Shown one piece after another: positions 28,328 through 61,800 of a stretch of 64,000 nucleotides of DNA. Both the position numbers and the translations under genes were made by a program. The first letter of the stretch is position 1. Each line of letters starts with the position of its first letter. The DNA comes from Comamonas kerstersii (GTDB taxonomy: Bacteria; Pseudomonadota; Gammaproteobacteria; Burkholderiales; Burkholderiaceae_C), in NCBI RefSeq assembly GCF_008801935.1, contig NZ_VZOT01000004.1, positions 1 to 64,000 on the forward strand, given 5' to 3'. The notes beneath the pieces were generated by a model. The model did no database searches. It saw only the letters and a list, made by a program, of their open reading frames with translations, and was not told where the DNA came from.

Positions 28328-28404
<77 letters not shown>

Positions 28405-30052: not shown

Positions 30053-31225
30053 ATGCTTACCGACACGCACTGCCGCAACGCCAAGCCCAGGGAGAAGCTC
30101 TACCGCTTGAATGACCAGCGCGGGCTCTACCTCGAAGTCAAGCCCAACGGAGTCAAGGCTTGGCGATACCGCTTCACACTGGATGGCAAGGCCAGCATGT
30201 TTGCGCTTGGCGAATACCCTGCTGTTACGCTCTCTGAAGCCAGGGAACGCAGCGAGGCCGCACGCAAACTGGTCAAGCAAGGCATCAATCCCGCCCAGCA
30301 AAGGCAGCTCGACCGCATCCGGAAAGCCAGCGAAGCAAAGAACACCTTCGAGATCGTCGCCAAGGAGTGGCTGCAGACAAAGGACTGGGAAGATGTCACC
30401 AAGAACCGGCGTCTGGATATGCTGGAGCGCGTGGTATTCCCCAGTATCGGCAGCATGCCGGTTCGCGAAATAACGCCAACCCATGTCCTGGACATCCTGC
30501 AGAAAACAGCAAAGCGTGGCGCGCCCACGGTCGCAGCCGAGGCGCGGCGCACCATGTCCGCCGTATTCGAGTTCGCCGTCGCCACCTTGCGAGCCGACAG
30601 CGACCCGGTTTGGCCGGTGCGCAAGGCGCTACCGGCAAACAAGACCCAGCACAAGCCGGCACTGAGTAAAGAGCAGATCGGCAAACTGCTGAGCGACTTC
30701 GCAAACCACCGCTGCAGCTTTCAGGTAAGTCATTGCATGCAACTGATGTGGTGGACCCTGGCGCGACCGACCGAAGTGGCCGAGGCGGCCTGGGATGAGT
30801 TTGACCTTGAGAAGGCTGTTTGGCGTATCCCGGCGCAGCGCATGAAAGCGCGCAAGGAGCACGTCGTGCCTCTGCCACGACAGGCAGTGGAGATGCTCAA
30901 AGGACTGCATGCCATTACCGGCAACCGCAAGCACCTGTTTCCTGGCCGGGATGATCGCAACGCCCCTATGTCCGCCGCATCGCTTCGCCAGGCGCTCAAG
31001 GTTTTGGGGTGGAGTGGCGCTTATAGCCCACACGCCACGCGGACCAGCGGCAGTACCCGTCTTAACGAGATGGGCTACCGCCCCGATGCCATCGAGGCGC
31101 AGCTTGCCCATGCCGACCAGAACAATGTGCGTCGTACCTACAACCACGCCACCTATTTCGATGAGCGCCGCACCATGATGCAGGAATGGGCGGACAAGTT
31201 GGATGAATGGAAGGGGCAAGCATGA
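30053..31225 (+). CDS. P4-type tyrosine integrase
   Basis: 390 residues. The N-terminal DUF4102 arm-binding domain starts MLTDTHCRNAKPREKLYRLN, followed by GLYLEVKPNGVKAWRYRF. The catalytic domain has the first Arg in MWWTLARPTEVAEAAW, the HxxR box HATRTSGSTRLNEMGY, and His-Tyr in AQLAHADQNNVRRTYNHA. It would insert and excise the island. Such integrases usually use tRNA 3' ends, yet here the upstream gene is ychF; the CAT tRNA is 1.6 kb away. GAGTA motifs in the gap before it could be arm sites. Its stop overlaps the next start. Confidence 0.95.
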   Translation: MLTDTHCRNAKPREKLYRLNDQRGLYLEVKPNGVKAWRYRFTLDGKASMFALGEYPAVTLSEARERSEAARKLVKQGINPAQQRQLDRIRKASEAKNTFEIVAKEWLQTKDWEDVTKNRRLDMLERVVFPSIGSMPVREITPTHVLDILQKTAKRGAPTVAAEARRTMSAVFEFAVATLRADSDPVWPVRKALPANKTQHKPALSKEQIGKLLSDFANHRCSFQVSHCMQLMWWTLARPTEVAEAAWDEFDLEKAVWRIPAQRMKARKEHVVPLPRQAVEMLKGLHAITGNRKHLFPGRDDRNAPMSAASLRQALKVLGWSGAYSPHATRTSGSTRLNEMGYRPDAIEAQLAHADQNNVRRTYNHATYFDERRTMMQEWADKLDEWKGQA

Positions 31226-32146: not shown

Positions 32147-32368
32147 ATGCGCGTCATAAAGGTTCAGGATGTCTGCGACAAAATTGCCGTCAGCCGGACA
32201 ACCCTCTGGCGACTTTGCCAGTCTGAAGATTTTCCAAAGCCAGTTCGGCTAGGCCCTGGCGGCCGTTCGATTGGCTTTTTTGCCCACGAGATCGACGCGT
32301 GGCTTGAGACTCAGGCGGCGGAGCGTGAGCACGCCGGTTGTCTGGCTCGCCAGAGGGCGAAGTCATGA
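32147..32368 (+). CDS. AlpA-family excisionase/transcriptional regulator
   Basis: 73 residues with the MerR-like helix-turn-helix of AlpA: VSRTTLWRLCQSEDFPKPVR followed by LGPGGRSIGFFAHEIDAWLE. AlpA proteins activate P4-type integrase genes or act as excisionases. It follows a 136-base gap with no other feature, which should hold its promoter, and overlaps the next gene by 4 bases (ATGA at 32365). Confidence 0.85.
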   Translation: MRVIKVQDVCDKIAVSRTTLWRLCQSEDFPKPVRLGPGGRSIGFFAHEIDAWLETQAAEREHAGCLARQRAKS

Positions 32369-33279
32369 GCCGCATCCGCATTGATGACTCTGCGGAATAT
32401 TGGTGGTCTCTGCCTTGCAGCCTGCTGCGCGATTCGCGGCTGAGCTATGAAGCGCGAGGCGTGGCTTGCCACTTGCTCTCGCTAGGCCGTAACTGGCAGT
32501 TGCGCGCTGTCGCACTGCCGCGCGTGCTGCACGATCAGTCACGAGCGAAAGGCCATCTCGGCAGAGACCTTTGCCGCCGCATACTGCGCGAACTTGAAGA
32601 TGCCGGCTACCTGGCGCGGAGGAAGTTCCAGGACGAGGAAGGGCTTTGGCGATGGGAGTCCGTGTTGACACCCGTTTCGCAAAAGGTGCCACAGACATCC
32701 ATGGCCGGCTTGGCCGGCGACGGAGAAACCGTGGACGGCGCATCCGTCGCCGGTCAGGGCGGTGATATAGGTGTAGGTGAATACAAGGAAGAAGTAGTAG
32801 TAAAAAATATAAAACCACTACTACAGACAGGGGCTGTGGATAACTCTCCGAAAACGGGAGAGGCTTCCGCGCCCTTGGACTTGTCGCACCCTTCTCTTCT
32901 GCCCTACCTGCGCGTCATCGCCGACGTAACCCGCCGCTTCGGCCCCTCGCTCTCAGCACAACAGATACAGCTTGTCGCCGACGAGCTGGCTGGCGTCCTG
33001 TCGGCAGCCGGTAGTGGCAAGCACGCGGGCATCCGCTCCGTGCGCTCATGGCTATTGGCCGTGATGAATAGCGCTGTCGCGGGAGAATTCATCGCCGAGT
33101 TCGCACCGAACATCGCCCGCTGGCGAAAGAACCGACAGGAGGCGATGGAGGCAGCGCAGTCGCGCGCTCCTGTACAACAGTCAGAAGCCGAGCGTCAAAA
33201 GACAAAGGCTGAACGCGCAAAGGCCATCGCCGATTTGAAAGCGATGTTCCACGGTGAACGAAATGATCGACGCGAATGA
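32365..33279 (+). CDS. Winged-helix DNA-binding protein of the island core
   Basis: 304 residues from the ATG at 32365, coupled to the AlpA-like gene. The N-terminal ~110 residues resemble a winged helix of the replication/helix-turn-helix type (WWSLPCSLLRDSRLSYEARG then RRILRELEDAGYLARRKF). A low-complexity linker and a charged C-terminal region rich in Lys, Arg and Ala follow (AEFAPNIARWRKNRQEAMEA). It may be a replication-initiation or partition accessory of the element. No catalytic motif is visible. The next gene starts inside its 3' end. Confidence 0.6.
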   Translation: MSRIRIDDSAEYWWSLPCSLLRDSRLSYEARGVACHLLSLGRNWQLRAVALPRVLHDQSRAKGHLGRDLCRRILRELEDAGYLARRKFQDEEGLWRWESVLTPVSQKVPQTSMAGLAGDGETVDGASVAGQGGDIGVGEYKEEVVVKNIKPLLQTGAVDNSPKTGEASAPLDLSHPSLLPYLRVIADVTRRFGPSLSAQQIQLVADELAGVLSAAGSGKHAGIRSVRSWLLAVMNSAVAGEFIAEFAPNIARWRKNRQEAMEAAQSRAPVQQSEAERQKTKAERAKAIADLKAMFHGERNDRRE

Positions 33280-34390: not shown

Positions 34391-34579
34391 ATGTCACGCC
34401 TGAAGGACGAAACCCTTTCCATCCGCACCTCCGCCGAGATCAAGCAGCTTTTGCGCTTGGCGGCTGATCGTGAGCGTCGCTCGGTGGCCTCAATGATCGA
34501 AATTCTGGTGTTGGAGTACGCTCGTACGCATGGCCTGAAACCAGACCCTCAAGGTGAGCCAGTAAAGGGAAATATATGA
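34391..34579 (+). CDS. Ribbon-helix-helix (Arc/MetJ-type) DNA-binding protein
   Basis: 62 residues: MSRLKDETLSIRTSAEIKQL forms the beta strand and first helix, and the segment after LRLAADRERRSVASMIEILV completes the ribbon-helix-helix. It starts 66 bases after the recombinase. It may control the downstream fic gene, whose upstream region carries a perfect 11-base direct repeat, a site type used by such proteins. This link is inference. Residues 50-62 are Pro-rich and probably disordered. Confidence 0.75.
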   Translation: MSRLKDETLSIRTSAEIKQLLRLAADRERRSVASMIEILVLEYARTHGLKPDPQGEPVKGNI

Positions 34580-47965: not shown

Positions 47966-49413
47966 AGATCCTTGATCTGCAGAACGAATTCCGCGAACTG
48001 ATCGCGCAACTCCGGCATGAAATCGAAGCCGCCAGTGCGATGGGGCAGTTTGATGTGCATAAGATTTCCGAGAACCTTATGTGCGGCCTTCTGCGAGAGC
48101 TGTGTGGCTGGACTGACTTGCGGAATCTGAACCACGAGCAAGCGAATTTTCCCGGAATTGATCTCGCAGACGATACGTGCCGAGTGGCGGTGCAGGTAAC
48201 GGCCACCGCAGACATCGGCAAGGTCAAATACACGCTGGAGCAATTTCTCAGTCGTGATTTGCACCAGCGTTACGACCGATTGATTGTCTATGTACTCACC
48301 GCCAAGCAAGGCAGCTACTCGCAAGCGGCCGTTGATTCGGTGTGCGAGAGCAAGCACAAGTTTTCAGCTGGCGATGATGTTTGGGACTACAAGGATCTGT
48401 GCACCCTAGCAGCCGATGCTGAACCACACAAGTTGCAAGCTGCGCTCAACCATTTGAAAGCCTATCTGCGCGGAGTGCCTGTTGGTTTAGCGGACGAGGA
48501 CATTGATCCACCGTTGACACCATCGGAATCGCTGACGGCCAACCTCGTGGAACTCTATTTTCCGAGCAAACTCTTCATTGCTCGATTGAGTGAGGATCTG
48601 CTGAAAAAGCATGGAAAAAGAAGACCAGGCTTGTGGCGAACTACCATTAGAGAGTTTAACCAAGAGAATGAACTCGCGGTTCCCTCTGCTTACGTAATCC
48701 ACAGTGGTAATCTGGTGACGTTTTTTGATCTGACCGAGCGGAACAATCCCTATCAGCACTTGTGTGAGCTAGGCACGGCAGAAGAACACCGCGCTGCTGA
48801 TTACTGTTCGATCGACGATGACCACGAGCGTGTCTTCAAGTCACTGTTGAGATTTTCCCTGCAGCATCGCCTGTTCAAAGAACGTGTACGGTGGGAAAAC
48901 GATATCGGTGAGTTCATATTCCTACCTTTGGAAGATGGCTTAAACCAACGGGAGGTGGTGTGGCAAGGAGAGAAAAAAGCCAAGCGCAATGTCTTTTCAA
49001 GGCAATTCAACAAAAAAGACCCTTCAAAGGTTTTTCTGCAAAAGCATCTCTCGTTCGCTGTAGATTTTTTGCGCCTGGATGGTCATTGGTTCATTGCCAT
49101 AACCCCCAGTTGGTTCTTTAGCTATGGAGCCAATTTCGAGCAGTCTGGTTTCAGTCACGACAACCTCAGCTGGATCAAGCGCCAGGAAAATAACCAGCAG
49201 GTGTTGAATCATTTTCGATTTATATCTGCCTGGCTGTCCTCAATTGACGACGAGGATCTTTTCTCAGAAAAAGGGACAACGGACTCCTTCCTCTCATTTG
49301 GGACTCCACTCATGCTGGACGGTGCCCCCTCTCTGGAGGAGTCTGGCTGGAAAGCCCTGCCTACGATCAATGAAGAAGATTCGGCGCAGCCGAGAAGGAT
49401 GTTCGGTTCATGA
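47962..49413 (+). CDS. APAZ protein with SMEK-like predicted nuclease N-terminus (short-Argonaute partner)
   Basis: 483 residues from the ATG at 47962. Residues 1-150 resemble the SMEK domain: FDVHKISENLMCGLLRELCG, then NFPGIDLADDTCRVAVQVTA (D67, Q78) and K87/K89, a pattern compatible with a PD-(D/E)XK-like fold. Residues about 190-430 resemble APAZ, the domain that pairs with short Argonautes: LPLEDGLNQREVVWQGEK and HLSFAVDFLRLDGHWFIAIT followed by PSWFFSYG. Known APAZ effectors carry TIR, SIR2 or nuclease domains; this N-terminus should be the toxic effector released on target binding. The SMEK label comes from memory of the family. It overlaps both neighbours by 4 bases. Confidence 0.75.
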   Translation: MKILDLQNEFRELIAQLRHEIEAASAMGQFDVHKISENLMCGLLRELCGWTDLRNLNHEQANFPGIDLADDTCRVAVQVTATADIGKVKYTLEQFLSRDLHQRYDRLIVYVLTAKQGSYSQAAVDSVCESKHKFSAGDDVWDYKDLCTLAADAEPHKLQAALNHLKAYLRGVPVGLADEDIDPPLTPSESLTANLVELYFPSKLFIARLSEDLLKKHGKRRPGLWRTTIREFNQENELAVPSAYVIHSGNLVTFFDLTERNNPYQHLCELGTAEEHRAADYCSIDDDHERVFKSLLRFSLQHRLFKERVRWENDIGEFIFLPLEDGLNQREVVWQGEKKAKRNVFSRQFNKKDPSKVFLQKHLSFAVDFLRLDGHWFIAITPSWFFSYGANFEQSGFSHDNLSWIKRQENNQQVLNHFRFISAWLSSIDDEDLFSEKGTTDSFLSFGTPLMLDGAPSLEESGWKALPTINEEDSAQPRRMFGS

Positions 49414-50831
49414 AACTGGTGCATGTCAACGAGCCAAGGCTTGAGTTTTTTGAGGGCTCACATGTTTGTCCTAGGCGCGGGATTGCAGCCTATGGGGTGT
49501 ATGACAAAGGCTCTCTCACCCGAAGAACTCGAATCCTAATCGGAGCCATCGGCACTAGCAAAGACCTCGAAGATTTTTCGAGTCTGATCGAGCGAATGAA
49601 GTCTCCTATATCGGCTGATGTGGATGAACACAAGGGCAATCTTTTTCCAGACTTCTGTGGATTCAATGAGCGGGTTGGGTTTCATGCGGAGCTTGCGTTC
49701 AACCAAGATTTAGGTCGCCCATTGAGACAATTGGATATCGAGAAAATTACAAAAATAAATAATAGAACGAAGCGTATAGAAGCAGCCCTCGATCTGTACT
49801 ATGAGGAGATCAAGTTCCTCGCACAGAACAGGCCTGTCGATGTGATCGTTTGCGTGCTTTCCAAATCTGTTTACGATGCAGTCAGCAAAGATTCGGCGAT
49901 AGAAGGCGACGAAAAGCTGGAAGAGAGCATCGAGGTTCAATCAGAGTTGAATTTCCGGCGGGCCTTGAAGGCGAAGGCCATGCACTTGGGAAAGCCGCTT
50001 CAATTGGTGCGTGCGGATTCACTGGCATCCGGCGCAAAGGGTCAGCAGGATGACGCAACCAAGGCTTGGAATCTCGCGACCGCGCTGTATTACAAGGCTG
50101 GCGCGACTAACCCATGGCGCCTTGAAAAGGCTGAAGGCAACACACTTTCTTGTGCCTTGGGTATCGCGTTCTACCGAAGCAGAGACAAGAAGACGCTTAA
50201 CACCAGCTTGGCTCAGGTTTTCGATGAATTGGGTAATGGATTGATTTTGCGGGGCACGCCTGTGCATCTCGACAAAGGAGATAGAGTCCCAAAGCTATCG
50301 GAGGAGCAGGCATATACGTTGTTCAAGGCTGCGCTTGAGGAGTATCGCAATGCGATGCGAACGTACCCTGGCAGGGTCGTTGTTCACAAGACATCAAATT
50401 TCTCTGACCTGGAGATTTCAGGTCTCATGAGTGCGGCCTCGGACTTGCGTATCGATACAGTTGATTTTGTGACGGTGATGGATTCGCGACTTCGACTCTT
50501 TAGGACTGGAGCATATCCTCCTTATCGAGGTACATCCCTAGTCCTTGATGACCAGCGGCAGTTGCTCTATACCCGAGGCTCAATCTGGTACTACAAGACC
50601 TATCCTGGGATGTACATTCCTCAGCCACTTGAGTTGCGCGTGATCCGCTCGGAGCAAAGCCCCGCCTTTCTGGCTAGGGAAATCCTCGGACTAACAAAAA
50701 TGAACTGGAACAACCCCCAGCTTGATGGAAAGTACCCCATCACGCTTAGTTGCGCCAGAAAGGTGGGGGAGATCATGAAGTATTTGGATGAACATGATCG
50801 ACCACAAATTCGCTATGGCTACTACATGTAA
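49410..50831 (+). CDS. Short prokaryotic Argonaute (MID-PIWI, catalytically inactive)
   Basis: 473 residues, the size of short pAgos, which lack the N and PAZ domains. The PIWI domain is recognised by VDFVTVMDSRLRLFRTG and the C-terminal LTKMNWNNPQLDGKYPIT (428-445). The first catalytic Asp is Ala (GIA, 251-253) and the third position reads HKTSNF (326-331), so it should bind guide and target but not cut. The MID domain should hold the guide 5' end. It is translationally coupled to the APAZ gene, its obligate partner in known short-Argonaute systems. Its codons are AT-richer than those of the methyltransferase, suggesting separate acquisition. Confidence 0.85.
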   Translation: MKLVHVNEPRLEFFEGSHVCPRRGIAAYGVYDKGSLTRRTRILIGAIGTSKDLEDFSSLIERMKSPISADVDEHKGNLFPDFCGFNERVGFHAELAFNQDLGRPLRQLDIEKITKINNRTKRIEAALDLYYEEIKFLAQNRPVDVIVCVLSKSVYDAVSKDSAIEGDEKLEESIEVQSELNFRRALKAKAMHLGKPLQLVRADSLASGAKGQQDDATKAWNLATALYYKAGATNPWRLEKAEGNTLSCALGIAFYRSRDKKTLNTSLAQVFDELGNGLILRGTPVHLDKGDRVPKLSEEQAYTLFKAALEEYRNAMRTYPGRVVVHKTSNFSDLEISGLMSAASDLRIDTVDFVTVMDSRLRLFRTGAYPPYRGTSLVLDDQRQLLYTRGSIWYYKTYPGMYIPQPLELRVIRSEQSPAFLAREILGLTKMNWNNPQLDGKYPITLSCARKVGEIMKYLDEHDRPQIRYGYYM

Positions 50832-54183: not shown

Positions 54184-55896
54184 ATGGCCAAGGCCGAAGC
54201 AAGCGTTGAAGAACTGGTTTCCATGATCGAGCGCGGCGAGCTGCGCTTGCCGGAAATGCAGCGCCAGTATGTGTGGCGTTCTACACGGGTGCGCGATTTG
54301 CTGGATTCGCTGTATCGGGGCTATCCCTCTGGGGCAATCCTGCTGTGGGAAACCGATGAGGCCGTGCCCCTGCAAAGCTTCGCCGTCAGCCAGAGCAACA
54401 ACCCTTATCAGAGCACCCGCCTGTTGCTCGATGGACAACAGCGTCTGACCTCGTTGTCTGCCGTCATTCGTGGCGAGCCGGTGTCGGTGCGCGGTCGCCG
54501 TCGGCCCATCGATTTGCTCTTCAATCTGGAGCATCCCGACCAACTGGCCGTCGTGACCGAAGTGGATGAGAACGGTGATGACGCCGAGGTCGAGGAGGAA
54601 GGCGAACTGGGCGGCGACGAGGCCGACGCCAGCGAAGACGAACTGCTGACGCGCTTCAACAAAATGACCTTCGTGGTGGCGACCCGGAAGCTGGAGCAGT
54701 TGCCGCAGTGGGTGAAGGTATCCGAAGTCTTCAAGACCGACAGCGATGCGCCTTTCCTCAAACGTGCGGGCATCAGTGGCTTTGATGATCCGCGTTACGA
54801 GAAATACAGTCAGCGCCTGGCCCGGCTGCGCGGCATTCGCAAGTACGTGTATCGCATGGACGTGCTGGAGCGAACACTGTCCTACGACGAGGTCACGGAA
54901 ATCTTCGTGCGGGTCAACTCGCTGGGCGCCAAGCTGCGCAGCTCCGATCTGGCTCTGGCGCAGATCACGGCCAAATGGCGGCACTCGCTGCAGACCTTCC
55001 TGGACTTCCAGAGTGCCTGCGCCCAGAACGGTTTCGAGCTTGATCTGGGTTTGCACCTGAAGAATTTGATGGCCTTTGCTACCGGGCAATCCCGTTTTCT
55101 GACCGTCGGCAGCCTGACCCTGGAGGTACTGCAGCAAGCCTGGAAAGAAGCCTGCGAGGGGATGGAATTTGCCCTCAATTTCGCACGCAGCAATCTGGGT
55201 ATCGACAGCCCTGCCTTGCTGTCATCGCCCTTCTTACTGGTGGTACTGGCCTACTTTGGGCATCGCCGCGACTATGCCCTCAGCACGGAAGAGGCGCAGC
55301 AGTTGCGCTACTGGGCCTTGACCGCCAATGCCAAAGGCCGTTTCTCGCGGGGTTCCAGTGAGACCATTCTGGATCAGGATTTGGCGACCATCCGTAATGG
55401 CGGCGGCGTCAATGAATTGATCGACCGGCTGCGCCTGCAGTTCGGCCGCCTTGACATCACGCCGGAAGAGCTGGAGGGGCGCAACCAGCGCAGCGCGCTG
55501 TTCAAGACCATGTTCCTGGCGTTTCGTGCGGCAGGCGCTAAGGATTGGCGCAGCCACCTGGCCATTGCCCTGGACCACTCGGGCAGTCAGCACCGCTTGC
55601 AGTTTCATCACATTTTCCCCAAGGCATTGCTGCGCGGCAGCTACACCCCTCGCGAGGCCGACGACATCGCCAATCTGGCTTTCATCGGCGGCAAAACCAA
55701 TCGTGCGATCAGCGACAAAGCGCCTGTGACCTACCTGTTGCCGCTGGTGACGCAGCACGGTGCAGCACCATTCGCAGCACAGTGCATCCCGGTGGAGGAG
55801 GAACTGTTGGCACTGGATCACTACAAGGCGTTCTTGCAAGAACGCCGTAAACGCATCGCGGCGGCACTGAATGCTTTCATCCATGCGACCGCTTGA
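54184..55896 (+). CDS. GmrSD-type DUF262/DUF1524 restriction protein
   Basis: 570 residues. The DUF262 half has LPEMQRQYVWRSTRVRDLLD with GYPSGAILLWE and the nucleotide-binding LLLDGQQRLTSL. An acidic insert (residues about 120-160) separates it from the second half. The C-terminal half ends with LQFHHIFPKALLRGS and ANLAFIGGKTNRAISDKAPV, the HNH-like DUF1524 core. GmrSD-family type IV enzymes cut DNA with modified bases such as glucosylated hydroxymethylcytosine, aided by NTP hydrolysis. It starts 13 bases after the HNH gene and ends the long run; the next 413 bases contain no gene. Confidence 0.88.
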   Translation: MAKAEASVEELVSMIERGELRLPEMQRQYVWRSTRVRDLLDSLYRGYPSGAILLWETDEAVPLQSFAVSQSNNPYQSTRLLLDGQQRLTSLSAVIRGEPVSVRGRRRPIDLLFNLEHPDQLAVVTEVDENGDDAEVEEEGELGGDEADASEDELLTRFNKMTFVVATRKLEQLPQWVKVSEVFKTDSDAPFLKRAGISGFDDPRYEKYSQRLARLRGIRKYVYRMDVLERTLSYDEVTEIFVRVNSLGAKLRSSDLALAQITAKWRHSLQTFLDFQSACAQNGFELDLGLHLKNLMAFATGQSRFLTVGSLTLEVLQQAWKEACEGMEFALNFARSNLGIDSPALLSSPFLLVVLAYFGHRRDYALSTEEAQQLRYWALTANAKGRFSRGSSETILDQDLATIRNGGGVNELIDRLRLQFGRLDITPEELEGRNQRSALFKTMFLAFRAAGAKDWRSHLAIALDHSGSQHRLQFHHIFPKALLRGSYTPREADDIANLAFIGGKTNRAISDKAPVTYLLPLVTQHGAAPFAAQCIPVEEELLALDHYKAFLQERRKRIAAALNAFIHATA

Positions 55897-55905
55897 GCTG
55901 TCAGC

Positions 55906-56022
55906 GCCACCTTGTTGCCACGCTGTGACCCACATGTCGCCACAATGCTGCCGCCATGTTCAACACAATGTTGCCACACTGCTCACCACATTGACGCCAC
56001 TATGTGCACACAGTGTTGCCAC
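55906..56022. repeat. Helically phased GCCAC motif array
   Basis: GCCAC starts at 55906, 55917, 55939, 55973, 55996 and 56018, with a GCCAT at 55953. The spacings of the exact copies are 11, 22, 34, 23 and 22 bases, close to whole helical turns. The extended form is CACAnTGnnGCCACnnTG. It lies in the 413-base gap between the gmrSD-like gene and jetA, where I see no convincing gene. It may be an array of protein-binding sites or the remnant of an attachment region. Confidence 0.5.
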
Positions 56023-56083
56023 CATGCCTTACACATTCCGGCCGGGACGCAGCCCGAGAGTCGCTTGTCCCCAGCACGCTGAG

Positions 56084-56123
56084 CACATTCTTTGTGCTGG
56101 CTCGCGAGAGCACAAAGAATGTG
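56084..56123. repeat. Perfect 15-bp inverted repeat with nested palindromic loop
   Basis: CACATTCTTTGTGCT (56084-56098) and AGCACAAAGAATGTG (56109-56123) are exact reverse complements. The 10-base loop contains CTCGCGAG. An outer pair TTGTCCCCA (56065-56073) / TGGGGACAA (56165-56173) encloses it. No T run follows, so it is not a standard terminator. Confidence 0.75.
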
Positions 56124-56238
56124 GCCGCTGGGCTCGATTTCGCCAGAAATCGGGCGCTGCGGCGTGGGGACAACGAATGGTCGATGCGTCCAGCCTGAAC
56201 CTTATGAAACCCCGCTGCGGCCATGCGCCGGGTTGCCG

Positions 56239-56276
56239 CCCTGTGCGGCTGGCGGGTGAGCGCATGCCGCACAGGG
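56239..56276. repeat. Second hairpin before jetA
   Basis: CCCTGTGCGGC (56239-56249) and GCCGCACAGGG (56266-56276), a perfect 11-bp stem with a 16-base loop, 33 bases before the jetA ATG. It could sit in the jetA leader. Confidence 0.6.
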
Positions 56277-56309
56277 AATGCCTGCTCGGTGGTGGGAGAC
56301 TGAACTGAC

Positions 56310-57570
56310 ATGGCCAACCCTCGCTCGCTGGTTTACGCGCTTTACACCCATTGGGACACCGTGGATCTTTTGGTGCGGCTGTCGCGCGAGTTTGCCGTGT
56401 TGACCAGCGATCAGGTGTTGAACGGTATTGCCAAGGTATCCGGGCAACTGGATGGCGAAGCGCAGGGCGCGGTGCTGCGTGCCCTGGTCAATGCGGACAT
56501 CCTGCAAACCTTGCCGCGCAGCAGCGATCTGCAGCTCAATGCCTATGTGCTGGAGTTCGTGCGCGGCCTCACCCGTGAACATGAGCTGGGCCTGGCTGCC
56601 GTACTGCAGGCGCGTGTTGCGGCCATCCGTGAAGCCACCGAAGCACTCAATGAAGGCATGCTCGGGGCCGACATTGGATCGCGTGCGCGGAGCCGCCAAC
56701 AAGCTGGCAGAACTCTTCCGCCAGATCAGTCTGCAGCTCGATCAGGACCGGCACGCGCTCTTTGAGCTGGCGGAAAACGCCAAAAGCGCCGACAGCAGCA
56801 TGCCGATCAGCCAGCGCTACCGCGAGGTGCTGGAAGCCTACGATCATTATGTGGAGCCGATGAACCAGATGATGGACAGCGGCTCGCAGGGCACCTTCTA
56901 TCGCTATCTGGAAGACGCCGAGCGTGCGCTGGACTGGAGCCTGGAGCAATTGTCGGTACAGGGTGCGCTCTACTCGCATCGCCTGCAGTTACGTCAGGTG
57001 GCGCACCAGGCCAAGGAGCTGCGGCGCTTTGGCCGGCTGGTGGCACAACAGTGCGCCGACACCCTGCTGCCCCTGCGCGAAGAGCTGCGTCAGCATAACG
57101 CGCTGACCAGTGCCATCAGCTTGCTGTTGGGGCAGGTGCGCAAACGCGGCCTGCGTCGCGCACTGTCGCGCCCGGCGAATGACACGGCGCTCCCCGTCTG
57201 GCGCAATGAGCGCGGTTTCAAACTGCAATTGGGCGATGAGGTACGGGCGCTCATGGCGGCCGCGCGCCAATACCAGCCGCAGGCGGTGGCCTTTCCGCAG
57301 GATGAACCCGGCGATGACGCTCCCTTGCTGGAGCAGGTGGACGAAGCCGCTATTCGTGCGCATCTGGCCCGCAGCCTGCCAGTGGAAAATCTGCTCGATT
57401 GGCTGCACAGCCATTACGCCCACCTGCAGGATGCCACCCTGCTGCGCCTATTCCATGACCTGCAACATGAGCCCGGCTGGCAGTTCGAGGCCGCCAGCCA
57501 GCCTGAAAAAACCACGTTGCAGACGATTCGCGTCCTGCATCACCCTCACCGCGTGAGTATCCCGCAATGA
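56310..57570 (+). pseudogene. jetA/mksF-like Wadjet subunit, interrupted by a one-base frameshift
   Basis: The first frame encodes ANPRSLVYALYTHWDTVDLL down to EALNEGMLG, then continues only into nonsense that stops at 56765. The second frame carries on the protein from LDRVRGAANKLAELFRQISL to the stop at 57570. Removing one G from the GGGG at 56664-56667 joins them into a single protein of about 419 residues, the size of JetA/MksF, the kleisin-like helix-turn-helix subunit of SMC complexes. Either the gene is broken, or the base is a sequencing error; a programmed shift is less likely. jetB starts in the last codons (ATGA at 57567). Confidence 0.75.
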
Positions 57571-58181
57571 CGATCCCACACGCTCTGGCAGCCGCGCTGT
57601 CGCAAATGCCGGCATTGGCCGAGCTGTTCCGCCTGTTTCTCTCCGGCAAACACCTGAATCGAATGGCCGAGCCCGCGCTGTGGGCGGAGCTGGAACAGCA
57701 CGAGGCCAGCTATGTCGGCTTGTTTGCCGCGCTGGGGTTCGAACTGCGCCTGGATGCCAGGGGCTTTGCCTGGTTTCACAACAGTGACGCCAACAGCAAC
57801 ATCGGCAAAATCAGCCGCCAGCTGGCCTTGCTGTTCATGGTGATCTTCGATGCCCAGGCCAACGCCGGCAAGGCCCTGCAGCGCTTTACCGATTGGCTGA
57901 TCGACAGCGCCTGGCTGGCCGAGGTCTACAAGCAACAGCAAGACCTGCTGGATGCCGAGGGCCTCAACCCCGACGCCCTGGTGGAGCTGATGGGCCGCGC
58001 CTGCAACCTGGGCTTTGCTGTGGCTGAGCCGACCGGCTGGCGACTGCTGCCCGCTGTATGCCGCTACCTCGATCATTTCGAGGGCCTGGCGTTGACGGCC
58101 AAGACCGATGGCGACGAAACGAACGCGCCGACGGAGGAAGACTGGGCTGCGGATGCACCAGACGACGAGGAGAACACCTGA
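57567..58181 (+). CDS. jetB/mksE-like Wadjet subunit
   Basis: 204 residues, mixed alpha. It is recognised mainly by position between the JetA-like and the SMC-like genes and by size. LFRLFLSGKHLNRMAEPALW and ALLFMVIFDAQANAGKAL resemble MksE-type winged-helix subunits, which bind the kleisin. It is coupled to jetA (ATGA) and to jetC (TGATG at 58179-58183). The acidic C-terminus (DDEENT) is probably disordered. Confidence 0.7.
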   Translation: MTIPHALAAALSQMPALAELFRLFLSGKHLNRMAEPALWAELEQHEASYVGLFAALGFELRLDARGFAWFHNSDANSNIGKISRQLALLFMVIFDAQANAGKALQRFTDWLIDSAWLAEVYKQQQDLLDAEGLNPDALVELMGRACNLGFAVAEPTGWRLLPAVCRYLDHFEGLALTAKTDGDETNAPTEEDWAADAPDDEENT

Positions 58182-60934
58182 TGCAGTACGGATTCCAACG
58201 TCTGGTCCTGCTGGGGAGTGCCGGCTACTCGCGTGCCGAGTTGCCGCTTGATGGCGCAGTCTCTTTGGTGGCACCCAACAACACCGGCAAGACCAGCCTG
58301 ATCAATGCCCTGCAGTTTCTGCTGATCATCGACCGCCGCCGTATGGATTTTGGTGCGCACGATGTGGATAAGAGCCGGCGCTTCTATTTCCCCAACAACA
58401 GCGCCTATGTGCTGCTGGAGGTGTCGCTGCCGGAGTCCGGCACCGTCGTGCTGGGCTGCGTGGGCAAAGGGGTAAGCTTCGAGTACGAGTATTTCGCCTA
58501 TGCCGGGCCGCTGAAGGTCGAGGAGTTCTGCCTGCCGGATGGCACCTTGGTGGCACAACCGCAACTGGCCAGCCATCTGGCCAGCTTTGGGCGCCGGGTG
58601 TTCAGCTACAGCAGCAGCGAATTTGCCGACATGGTCTATGGCGGGCGCAGCCGCAAGCTCGCCAGTCAGCAGGATTTCTGCGTTTTCCGCCTGGAGCACG
58701 CCAGCGATGCCAGCGTTTTTCAGCGGGTGCTGACCCGCACGCTGCGCCTGGACAAACTGCGCTCCAGCGAGGTCAAGGACTATCTGCTGCAGATTTTCCG
58801 GCGCGATCTGCCGGATGCCAGCATCGACTTCAAGGCGGAATGGGACAAGGCGTTTGCCGACCTCAACGCCGAACGCAGCCAGTACCTGGCCGCCGTGCGG
58901 CTGCAAGCCACCTTGAACGAACTGGAACAAAAGCAGGAAGCCCGCCTGGTGTTGCGCGGCAAATTGCTGTGCTGGCGCCCCTTGATCGACGCGGCACTGA
59001 GCCAGTGGCAGCAGCATTACGAGACCTGCCAGCTAGCTTTGCAGGATGAACTGGCGCAGTGCGATACCGAGCTGCAGCGCCTGCGCGAACAGGATATGCA
59101 GTCGGCTGGCGAGAAGAAAGAGTGCGAGTTGGAACAACAGCAGCTCCGCCAGCAAAGCGAACAGTTGCGCGCGTTGCAGCAGCGTTTTGCCTTGATCCCT
59201 GAACGCGCCCTGTTGGAGGCGCGCCGCCGCGAGCTGCAGGAACAACGGGATGCGCTGGTGGTACGGATCGGCCAGGCCCAGAGCCGCACGCCTGCGGCCA
59301 TCGAGCGCGAGCTGGCCCGGATCGAACGGGAATCCGCGCAGCTGGCGCAGGAGTTGCGCACCCAGGGGCAGAACCTCTATCAGCAACTGGCCGGTGTCGT
59401 ATCTGCGGAACAACTCAGTGCGCTGAACAAGATGCTGGCCAAGCCGGTACTGACTTTGGGCAGCGAAGACTTCCATCTCGATGGCAAGGCGCTGATTGCA
59501 GCCTTGGCCGATGCTGATGCCCGGCAACTCAACTTGCCTGGCCTGCAACTGCGGCTGGAAGCCCTGCCCGCGCAGTATCAGCAACGCACTCTGACGGAAC
59601 TGGGCGAATTGCAGCAGGAGCTGCAGCAACAGCAGGCTCAGCTGCAAGAACAATTGGCCACCGCCCAAGCCCTGGAGAGGGTCAAGCAACAGCGCCAGGC
59701 ATTGGAGCAGCAACTGACACAGCTGGATGCCGAACTGCGAGACTACGCGCACATGCAGGATCTGCAGCAGAGCGAGGCCGAGCGCAAGACGCGGCTGCAG
59801 ACACTGGAGGACAGGCTCGCAGAACTCGGCTCCCATTTGGCCCAGTCGGCAGAGCGGCACCGCGCATTGGATCAGCAGCGTCAGCAGCGGCAGCAGGATT
59901 TGACGGCCTTGCAGCAGCAACACCGGCAGATCGAGCAACGCCGTTATCAGCGCATCGACCACGAAGGCCCCTTCACCTGGCTGGCCGACCTGCCGCACAG
60001 CCCTTGGTTGGCCCAGCCCGAGTTCGCGCTGGAACAGCTGGCCGAGCGCCTGCAGACCTATCAGGCAGACTGCCGCCAGTTGCTGGAGCTGGATGAGCAG
60101 ATTCGCCATCTGCTGGGTGAAATCCATAGCGGCGGATTGACCAAGTATCAGTTTGTCGGAGAACCGGAAAGCGAGATTGTTCGTCTCGTTGAATTCGCCC
60201 ATCACCTGCCGCAGGAAGCCGAAGCTCTGGAAAGGAAAGTACGCTCGGCGGTGGTGAATGTGGCCGCCTGCCTGCGCGAGCTGCGCGATGGCCTGTTTGC
60301 TTTCAAGCGCCGGATGCGCGAGTTCAATCGCAAGATCAGCGGTCGGCAACTTTCCGACCTGGCGGTGTTCAAGATCGAACCCGAGGACGAAACCATCCTG
60401 GTCGAAGCTATCGAGCTGCTGATCAATACCGCCGCCACGGTGGACAGTGGCGAAACCTTCGAGCTGTTCAACCAGCAGAGCGTCCTTGACGACGAGCAGC
60501 TCAATCGCGCCAAGACCCTGCTGATCGAAGAGGGCAATGCCCGCCACGGCTTGCGCGTGGCCGACCTGTTTCGCCTGCGCTTCTGGGTCGGCAAGGCCGA
60601 TCGCGAGCCGGAAGCCTTCGACGACCTCGACAGTGCCGCCTCCAATGGCACCGTGCTGATGGCCAAACTGGTGACGGGGCTGGCGATGCTGCATCTGATG
60701 CAGGATCAGCGTCGCCCCATCCAGGGCATCTGCTACCTGGACGAAGCCCTGGCGCTGGACGCCCGCAATCAGCGCAGCCTGATCGACACGGCAGCGGAGT
60801 TCGGTTTCTCGCTGATTTTTGCCTCGCCCGCGCCGCTGACCACCGTGCGCTACTGCGTGCCGATTCACACGCGCAACGGCAGCAACCAGATCAGTCGCCA
60901 TAGCTGGCAGATCATCGAACCGCTGGAGGCCTGA
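58181..60934 (+). CDS. jetC/mksB-like SMC ATPase
   Basis: 917 residues from the ATG at 58181; a longer frame to 58058 overlaps jetB. Walker A APNNTGKTS is at 31-39. A very long Gln/Glu/Leu-rich coiled coil runs from about 230 to 620. The C-terminal ATPase half has SNGTVLMAKLVTGLAMLHLM (ABC signature region) and Walker B GICYLDEALALD (D854, E855). Wadjet complexes extrude DNA loops and restrict circular plasmids. It is smaller than many JetC proteins. jetD follows after 2 bases. Confidence 0.88.
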   Translation: MQYGFQRLVLLGSAGYSRAELPLDGAVSLVAPNNTGKTSLINALQFLLIIDRRRMDFGAHDVDKSRRFYFPNNSAYVLLEVSLPESGTVVLGCVGKGVSFEYEYFAYAGPLKVEEFCLPDGTLVAQPQLASHLASFGRRVFSYSSSEFADMVYGGRSRKLASQQDFCVFRLEHASDASVFQRVLTRTLRLDKLRSSEVKDYLLQIFRRDLPDASIDFKAEWDKAFADLNAERSQYLAAVRLQATLNELEQKQEARLVLRGKLLCWRPLIDAALSQWQQHYETCQLALQDELAQCDTELQRLREQDMQSAGEKKECELEQQQLRQQSEQLRALQQRFALIPERALLEARRRELQEQRDALVVRIGQAQSRTPAAIERELARIERESAQLAQELRTQGQNLYQQLAGVVSAEQLSALNKMLAKPVLTLGSEDFHLDGKALIAALADADARQLNLPGLQLRLEALPAQYQQRTLTELGELQQELQQQQAQLQEQLATAQALERVKQQRQALEQQLTQLDAELRDYAHMQDLQQSEAERKTRLQTLEDRLAELGSHLAQSAERHRALDQQRQQRQQDLTALQQQHRQIEQRRYQRIDHEGPFTWLADLPHSPWLAQPEFALEQLAERLQTYQADCRQLLELDEQIRHLLGEIHSGGLTKYQFVGEPESEIVRLVEFAHHLPQEAEALERKVRSAVVNVAACLRELRDGLFAFKRRMREFNRKISGRQLSDLAVFKIEPEDETILVEAIELLINTAATVDSGETFELFNQQSVLDDEQLNRAKTLLIEEGNARHGLRVADLFRLRFWVGKADREPEAFDDLDSAASNGTVLMAKLVTGLAMLHLMQDQRRPIQGICYLDEALALDARNQRSLIDTAAEFGFSLIFASPAPLTTVRYCVPIHTRNGSNQISRHSWQIIEPLEA

Positions 60935-60936
60935 CC

Positions 60937-61800
60937 ATGGATCGAACCCTGCGCGCAGCCTTGCTCAAGCTGCATGGTCAGCCATACCTGCAGGCCAGCC
61001 AGTTCACCGCCGCTCAGCGCCGCGCGCTGGATTACTTTGCTCGGCAGACCGGAGCGGTGACCTGCCAGCGTCAGGGGCGCGGTGATGTTTACCGTGTCCG
61101 CGATCCGCGACTATTCAATACCCATCTGAGCGCACTCTCCCCACAGGTCGGGATGCTTACCACGGACGATCTGCCGCTGCGGGCGCAACACATCGCCCAT
61201 GCCCGCGACAGCAAAGCGCGCAATCATCAGCATGAGTGTTACTACCCCTTGCTCAAGACTGTTGGCGAAAAGGTTTGCTGGCGGCAAGGCGAACACGGGA
61301 GCGAGCTGCCACTCAGCCGGCTGACCCACGACTTCGGAGCCGCCAGCCTGCGCATCGAAGCCGGCGATACCTGGCAAAGCGAGCAGCCACTCTGGCTGGT
61401 GGAGAACCAGGCGCTGTTTGACCGCACGGATTGGTTGCCGACCGGAACGCAGGCCACCCTGCTGTACTACGGTGGCCAGCTCGATGGCCGGCTTCTCGCC
61501 TGGCTGGGGCAGCGCCCGCGTGCCAGCCGTGTCATCCTGTTCCCGGACTATGACGGGGTGGGGTTGGCCAATTTCGCGCGACTCTTTGCACAGCTTGGTG
61601 ATGCTTGCGAATGCTGGCTGATGCCCGACTGGCAAAGCAAACTGGCACGCTATGGCAGCCAGCGGCTATGGCAGGATACGTTTCGGGACTTCGCCAGTGC
61701 CGTTGCCCAGTTGCCCGACTATCTGAGCCCGTTAACCGCACAAATGCGCCAATCCGGGCTGGCACTCGAACAGGAAGCGGTCTGGCTACCTGTTCTGTAG
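60937..61800 (+). CDS. jetD/mksG-like TOPRIM nuclease subunit
   Basis: 287 residues. The C-terminal TOPRIM-like part has LVENQALF (acidic Glu), YYGGQLDGRLLAWLGQRP and FPDYDGVGLANF (D204, D206), matching the metal-binding Glu and DxD of the nuclease that nicks DNA in Wadjet. The N-terminal half is a helical domain with no clear match to the DNA-binding arm usually seen, and the protein is shorter than typical JetD. Its 3' end overlaps the oppositely oriented XRE regulator by 15 bases. Confidence 0.8.
   Translation: MDRTLRAALLKLHGQPYLQASQFTAAQRRALDYFARQTGAVTCQRQGRGDVYRVRDPRLFNTHLSALSPQVGMLTTDDLPLRAQHIAHARDSKARNHQHECYYPLLKTVGEKVCWRQGEHGSELPLSRLTHDFGAASLRIEAGDTWQSEQPLWLVENQALFDRTDWLPTGTQATLLYYGGQLDGRLLAWLGQRPRASRVILFPDYDGVGLANFARLFAQLGDACECWLMPDWQSKLARYGSQRLWQDTFRDFASAVAQLPDYLSPLTAQMRQSGLALEQEAVWLPVL

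Follow-up and report, generated by a model that had tools for sequence, protein, structure and literature searches.

Integrons join a tyrosine recombinase to a folded, strand-biased sequence that lies right after the 3' end of a cargo gene, and defense genes are found among their cargo. Direct repeats of 11 bp characterize parC, the site bound by ParR, as well as other arrays bound by RHH proteins. A conserved element that stands at the edge of the cargo together with a recombinase gives a handle on the question of how islands come to accumulate defense genes. BldC is reported to leave one DNA turn between bound molecules, whereas for RdfS the same report gives no apparent consensus motif (PMC11963761). 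RhoTermPredict takes as criteria for a rut site that C exceeds G, that cytosines recur every 11-13 nt, and that a hairpin lies downstream (PMC6407284).

The locus analyzed here lies in the window, that is, the whole stretch of 64,000 nucleotides of Comamonas kerstersii DNA that was studied (contig NZ_VZOT01000004.1, positions 1 to 64,000), where an element stands between two antiviral gene sets. The first-pass annotation of this DNA had recorded an array of GCCAC motifs at this place; the array is real, but the description was too narrow, as the array is the left half and a folded core the right half of one compound element of ~300 bp (Table 1). The adjoining covarying fold and the link with the putative second tyrosine recombinase of the island (YR2) had both been overlooked.

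Results

Table 1. Features of the window that bear on the compound element, with the evidence for each
Feature	Position	Strand	Evidence
tRNA-Met, possible island insertion site	28328..28404	+	no second copy of the 3' end in the window plus 12 kb
Island integrase with arm-binding domain	30053..31225	+	PF13356, PF00589
AlpA-type excisionase/regulator	32147..32368	+	PF05930 E=5.1e-12
Replication-initiator-like protein, upstream of YR2	32338..33279	+	phrog_270 E=5.7e-7, no Pfam match
YR2, putative divergent tyrosine recombinase, 356 aa	33254..34324	+	phrog_1 E=7.7e-6; motifs; PDB fold matches
Small RHH-like protein adjoining YR2, candidate array binder	34391..34579	+	PF07878 E=8.4e-4, 19.5 bits vs a curated threshold of 26
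GmrSD/DUF262-type restriction gene, upstream of the array	54184..55896	+	PF03235 E=8.9e-28
Phased CACnnTG array, ~12 units of 10-12 bp	55906..56038	+	CAC period 11.15 bp, 0/1000 shuffles
Three-way-junction core: outer stem GGACGCA/TGCGTCC, middle stem TGTCCCCA/TGGGGACA, two hairpins	56042..56196	+	fold z, covariation, covariance model
Third hairpin region (predicted)	56205..56276	+	sequence conserved in G355, G694, and G634; unrecognisable in G624
MksF, reading frame broken by a shift of one base	56310..57570	+	named by position before MksE; no family match
MksE, MksB, MksG	57567-58181, 58058-60934, 60937-61800	+	PF21980 MksE E=2.1e-34; MksB weak JetC 2e-6; MksG DUF7281

A phased array of CAC units

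The exact GCCAC copies start at 55906, 55917, 55939, 55973, 55996, and 56018, at spacings of 11, 22, 34, 23, and 22 bp exactly as claimed by the first-pass annotation. These six copies belong to a series of ~12 CACnnTG-like units between 55908 and 56038, which follow the form C[A/G]CnnTG and start on the + strand at 55908, 55919, 55931, 55941, 55952, 55964, 55975, 55987, 55998, 56009, 56020, and 56032, with a spacing of 10-12 bp and a mean of 11.27 bp. The full form is matched by 10 of the 12 units, the TG being missing at 55931 and 56032; counted by letter, CAC is retained in 11, T in 11, and G in 10, and the positions between are variable. The longest run at a spacing of 11 or 12 bp comprises eight units, compared with a maximum of two elsewhere in the window and the next 12 kb (76 kb, both strands), and a run of this length was reached in none of 5000 dinucleotide shuffles of 140 bp and in none of 100 shuffles of the whole window, the largest run being three in each set. 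CACnnTG also tops 1023 gapped cores of like shape on the + strand, with an exact run of six and a next best of three, and GCCAC as a word is only mildly over-represented in the window (307 occurrences on both strands vs 265 expected). Conservation within the units is uneven: the CAC..TG columns hold 4/36 of the mismatches, a value matched by the best five columns in 6 of 20,000 random placements, and the observed unevenness among columns was reached in 23 of 20,000, in a test for which the unit starts were placed by hand in a manner slightly favoring the core columns. In folding, the array alone is unremarkable (z -0.16 on one strand, -1.87 on the other).

A turn of B-DNA takes ~10.5 bp, so that at a period of 11.27 bp the site rotates by ~26 degrees with each unit. 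The sites of the array follow a slow superhelical path and not one face of the helix, and the earlier description of whole helical turns on a single face is right only roughly. The same description had called the stretch gene-free; a 145-aa open reading frame (55871-56308) spans it, which goes against the wording, but this frame is not conserved, and the G624 copy has 6-8 stops in each frame. Near-identical repeats of at least 23 bp with unique spacers, as in a CRISPR, are not present in the array, whose tandem units of 11/23 bp are degenerate and follow each other with no spacers, and on this point we agree with the first reading. Nor does it resemble the arm-type sites of a tyrosine integrase, as the arm-binding integrase of the island ends 24.7 kb from the array and no second run of units was found near that integrase.

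An arm-site motif shared across phyla was considered and rejected. CACNNTGNNGCCACNNTGNNGCCACNNTG formed 75 stretches in genome_contigs, 19 of them in Arcticibacter and a few beside integrases or tRNA, but in viral_contigs two control patterns gave 6 and 34 stretches (the 34 mostly from one unit family) vs 6 for the motif; because the control patterns are as frequent as the motif, its recurrence across phyla carries no weight. A strict pattern was found in none of 369 genomes of the class, as was a control of the reversed type, and this strict pattern misses the window array itself too, so that its absence is uninformative. Viral contigs contain at least 120 stretches that fit a 14-base pattern. 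An integrase profile gave at least four matches, a lower bound because at least two of the open reading frames from which it was built lie on the wrong strand. Among the Arcticibacter loci displayed (of L163, L167, L174, and 16 others), an inverted copy comes after the 11-bp array in most, which resembles a family of interspersed hairpin repeats. In L200, L231, and L168, arrays of the GCCAC type with an 11-bp period lie close to tyrosine integrases, and in L168 and L233 close to a tRNA gene; these arrays are perhaps arm-type sites. Tandem arrays with an 11-bp period made of ACCAAGTACCG and similar units, retrieved by a control pattern, are present in many viral contigs (L275-L308).

A folded core adjoining the array

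The right half of the element folds with a z-score of -7.0 relative to shuffles (56036-56204), and the window scores 164.9 bits against the core covariance model, of which it is one of the model's own sequences. The structure of the core was obtained with RNAalifold from a MAFFT alignment of four copies, in which 8 of 50 pairs had changed on both sides. Across five copies, in an alignment made to the covariance model and hence leaning towards its structure, standard pairs account for 97.6% of 250 pair cells and double changes for 14 of the 50 pairs. On each of five measures, the covariation of the core was reached by none of 500 shuffles, and structures slid along the alignment drop to 35-50% paired. 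On the + strand, the pair types include 11 G.T, 1 A.C, and 5 other mismatches, and the excess of G.T over A.C indicates that the functional strand is probably the + strand, a bias that fits RNA as well as single-stranded DNA. As many as 76 of 171 core columns are invariant, among them many stem letters (GGACGCA/TGCGTCC and ACATTCTTTG/AAGAATGTGG), which suggests that the core may be recognized in a sequence-specific manner.

Copies and losses of the element in other genomes

Array and core occur together in the window and in four other genomes (G355, G694, G634, and G624). When the phasing of CAC was measured in the 190 bp before the core, with periods from 10.5 to 12.2 bp tried, its strength was matched by 0 of 1000 shuffles in each of the five copies, including the AT-richer G624, and the best periods were 11.15 (window), 11.10 (G355), 11.30 (G694), 11.40 (G634), and 11.20 bp (G624). 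The letters between the CACs differ widely among copies, so that the conserved part consists of the spacing and CAC; the TG of the window units is not general. The last CAC sits 7-18 bp ahead of the core in the five copies. Since the phasing is held in all of them, the protein-binding, operator-like role envisaged in the first-pass annotation is plausible, with a binder that is putative.

The copy in G355, a genome of another family in the same class, is 95.7% identical to the window over 2.8 kb and keeps array and fold without indels. Seven of 141 bases differ in the array region, four at nn positions, two in spacers, and one in a core column of a unit that was already odd, and this distribution (one substitution in core columns vs six outside) is not significant by plain arithmetic. 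Of 379 genomes in the order, seven contain a match to MksF, the window's own included. The MksF-bearing genomes G694 and G634 carry the array-plus-fold, with the array, the core, and the following part 68-82% identical to the window, and the element lies directly before MksF in the former and one gene away from it in the latter. The four-copy covariance model, applied to the 379 genomes, recovered its own three copies there and one new copy, that of G624 (E = 4.8e-10), whose core has 40% G+C.

Other loci have lost or lack the element. G036, from the same genus and with the same two gene sets, is without the part corresponding to ~55866-56154 and still has the right-hand strand of both the outer and the middle stem, from which we infer that G036 lost sequence rather than that the window gained it. 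Through this deletion, GmrSD of G036 has acquired a new C-terminal tail, which stops shortly ahead of the start of MksF (L149, 12292-14121). At the junction of G226 (MksF 86%), which measures ~60 bp, neither half of the element is present; the element is also absent from G510 and, over the 1.5 kb examined ahead of Mks, from G743 and G557, and the contig of G727 starts inside MksF and is thus uninformative. In G510, a gene that reads like a Y1 transposase stands upstream of MksF where the element would be expected (L309). No run of four units was found at the more distant MksF loci (G227, G315, G238, G085, Halioglobus, and Polaromonas), no core at the two plasmid loci, and no copy beyond G634 and G624 themselves in the 10 and 9 genomes around them. 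Searches of plasmids, phages, and E. coli with blastn gave short matches only and no notable further copy, and viral contigs held neither a match to the exact hairpin pattern nor a relative of MksF. The first-pass annotation had allowed for a motif that is neither in excess nor conserved at homologous junctions: an excess was found, and the array is conserved at some of these junctions and lost or absent at others (G036, G226, and G510).

Defense genes and the Mks operon

Defense genes lie upstream of all five copies, in four contexts and on the same strand as the element. The upstream gene is GmrSD in the window and G355; G694 has a type III-like helicase, an AAA protein, and a McrBC gene, and G634 a type I R subunit and a Mrr-type nuclease. 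In G624 the upstream genes are PycC, E1-E2, JAB, and a Pycsar TIR effector, the array following ~400 bp after the Pycsar operon, with an IS-type fragment, recognized by reading the sequence and without a Pfam match, between effector and array, and with an IS66 fragment after the element. The array begins at most ~35 bp past the stop of the defense gene in the window, G355, G694 (McrBC), and G634 (Mrr-type). Homology between G694 and G634 starts 137 bp ahead of the core, inside the array and 65 and 34 bp past the stops of unrelated upstream genes, which places the switch from one upstream module to another at the left end of the array or slightly within it. Both observations bear out the earlier suggestion of a junction element. 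A prokaryotic Argonaute of 473 aa is encoded in the same region of the window (49410-50831; PADLOC pAgo_I, E=1.2e-175).

The occurrence of the element is not tied to the Mks operon that follows it in the window. A role as a Mks leader, as suggested by the window, G355, and G694, is unlikely in view of G624, where the element is present and a tblastn search of 19.5 kb showed no Mks (best E 0.56), and of G226 and G510, which have Mks without the element. The reading frame of MksF is broken at ~56673 by one base that is extra in the window compared with G036 and G355, and the Mks system of the window may be inactive, or the assembly may be wrong at this frameshift.

A putative second tyrosine recombinase in the mobile island

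YR2 lies on the strand of the element, ~6-22 kb upstream of it, with defense cargo between. In four of four homologues, both Arg, the Lys residues, LGH, and the Tyr are invariant, and the usual active-site His is replaced (Y/Y/T/Y at the HxxR position), so that YR2 may, on sequence grounds, be catalytically inactive. The fold model of YR2 is moderate (pLDDT 75, pTM 0.54), and ranks 1-7 of its PDB fold matches are tyrosine recombinases (XerH, staphylococcal integrase, Cre, lambda Int, and IntI), with a best E of 0.023 and none below 0.001.

Eight loci were compared over 40-76 kb: the window, loci from the Mks searches other than G743, G557, and the distant MksF loci, and G624, which was reached via the element itself. 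The element is present in all four loci with an intact YR2 (the window, or G000, and G694, G634, and G624). G355 has an intact element and only a 3' remnant of YR2, G036 has half an element and no YR2, and G226 and G510 have Mks and neither YR2 nor the element. In the loci read, the element thus follows YR2 more closely than it follows Mks, and because seven of the eight are Mks-derived or the window, and several are close relatives, this association is a lead and not a statistic.

Other genes of the island are shared to different extents. The G624 locus has in common with the window the integrase (37.5%), AlpA (43%), YR2 (38%), and two further genes; AlpA is present in the window, G634, and G624, and the integrase in these and, truncated, in G355. 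No Int or AlpA homologue was found in ~60 kb of G694, so the island core is not complete everywhere. The first candidates for a protein that binds the array are the RHH-like and AlpA-type proteins, encoded on either side of the Rep-like and YR2 genes. No second copy of the element was found in 323 kb of flanks. Just downstream of YR2, a search for an attI-like partner gave short matches only (best E 0.20); on the upstream side the search was for the stem letters only.

Discussion

The array and fold beside antiviral genes in related mobile islands look like a working part of such islands and not like a product of chance. The reading that we favor, tentatively and with confidence somewhat short of even, is a compound cis-acting element of the island with the array as its protein-binding half, placed where the defense cargo ends on the right and probably acting in recombination, resolution, transfer, or replication. 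An oligomeric island protein (the RHH protein, the AlpA-like one, Rep, or YR2 itself) would coat the CAC sites, spaced by 11.2 bp, as a filament, and the core would act as a folded + single strand or as a cruciform, forming a substrate of YR2 or of the Rep/transfer machinery. Array and core as a unit would then serve one of these four processes, and their place at the cargo edge could let the element help the island gain or exchange defense modules, or process DNA after excision. Against this reading count the lack of a second copy in the flanks and of an attI-like partner just downstream of YR2, the replaced His of YR2, and the intact element of G355, a locus with no intact YR2.

We regard as unlikely the more far-reaching proposal of a second, integron-like builder of defense islands, in which YR2 with Rep and AlpA captures or exchanges whole antiviral operons at a single compound site. 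Capture would require a second site, or an explanation for the lack of one, and none was found.

Among the alternatives to the compound cis-acting element, a structured RNA survives best, and we rate it as possible but doubtful. The core would in that case be a + strand RNA, transcribed from its own gene or as a leader, and the array an upstream DNA control region under an oligomeric regulator. The core fold fits an RNA gene equally well: it covaries, its G.U pairs are on the + strand, its orientation is that of the upstream defense genes in all five copies, and the array is directly upstream of it. On the other hand, a consensus scan of 55850-56400 found no sigma-70-like promoter and no intrinsic terminator (a GC-rich hairpin with a T run), and Rfam 15 gave only sub-threshold matches for 55000-57000 of the window, L321, and L310. 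An RNA of the Mks leader kind is unlikely given that G226, G510, and, over 1.5 kb ahead of Mks, G743 and G557 have Mks without the element and the G624 locus the element without Mks, and an RNA also explains the recombinase link less well. Type III toxin-antitoxin and retron noncoding RNAs were likewise considered as candidate classes.

Quite unlikely, in our estimate, is a Rho-dependent terminator or insulator ending the defense operon, in which Rho would use the C-rich, G-poor array as its rut site and the hairpins would cause pausing and protect the 3' end. C exceeds G in all five arrays, and by a loose criterion, applied without a null, cytosines can be chained every 11-13 nt with a hairpin downstream; but the conserved CAC, the invariant stem letters, and the YR2 link are left unexplained, and the array exceeds the 78-nt rut of the RhoTermPredict model.

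An origin of the iteron type, in which the array would bind the island Rep and the fold would be part of the origin, is less than likely to a marked degree and in our view improbable. The window has a Rep-like protein before YR2, G624 has a RepA_C protein just upstream of its YR2, and TRF assigns the window array a period of 23. Iterons, however, usually adjoin rep, whereas the core lies ~6-22 kb from YR2 and hence from the rep beside it, and at an E of 1e-4 nothing in the G624 locus matches the Rep-like protein of the window. The idea of a neutral, decaying 11-bp tandem repeat without function is highly improbable and already contradicted, for although 11-bp tandem arrays of other sequence are common, as the control patterns in viral contigs illustrate, neutrality does not account for the uneven column conservation, for phasing held in 5/5 copies despite large divergence, or for the joining of the array to a covarying core in each of them.

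The element can be searched for with a covariance model, and new defense genes may turn up just upstream of further copies. If the core is an RNA, it would represent a structured RNA class of defense islands that Rfam 15 does not hold.

A literature search found no account of such an element, although with partial coverage and few terms this is no proof of absence. The compound element can nevertheless be set beside several known systems. With the rut sites of RhoTermPredict it shares C exceeding G, regular cytosines, and hairpins downstream, whereas the conserved CAC and the invariant stem letters exceed that model (PMC6407284). The oligomers of small proteins on DNA that we propose for the array have a counterpart in the filaments of wHTH recombination directionality factors and BldC; unlike RdfS, for which no consensus is reported, the array has a plain motif. 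With arrays of the parC/ParR type the locus has in common about ten direct repeats of 11 bp and an RHH-like protein in the island, and differs in that the RHH match is under the cut-off and a covarying core is attached. The differences from integrons are several: the RYYYAAC/GTTRRRY boxes of attC are found in none of the five core copies on the + strand, each locus read has one copy of the element and no attI-like site was found, a phased array precedes the fold, and IntI4 is only a weak match to YR2 (E=0.16), ranking behind an unrelated chain (0.091). What the locus shares with attC and IntI is a putative tyrosine recombinase, a sequence past the cargo genes that is predicted to fold and is probably strand-biased, and a cargo of defense.
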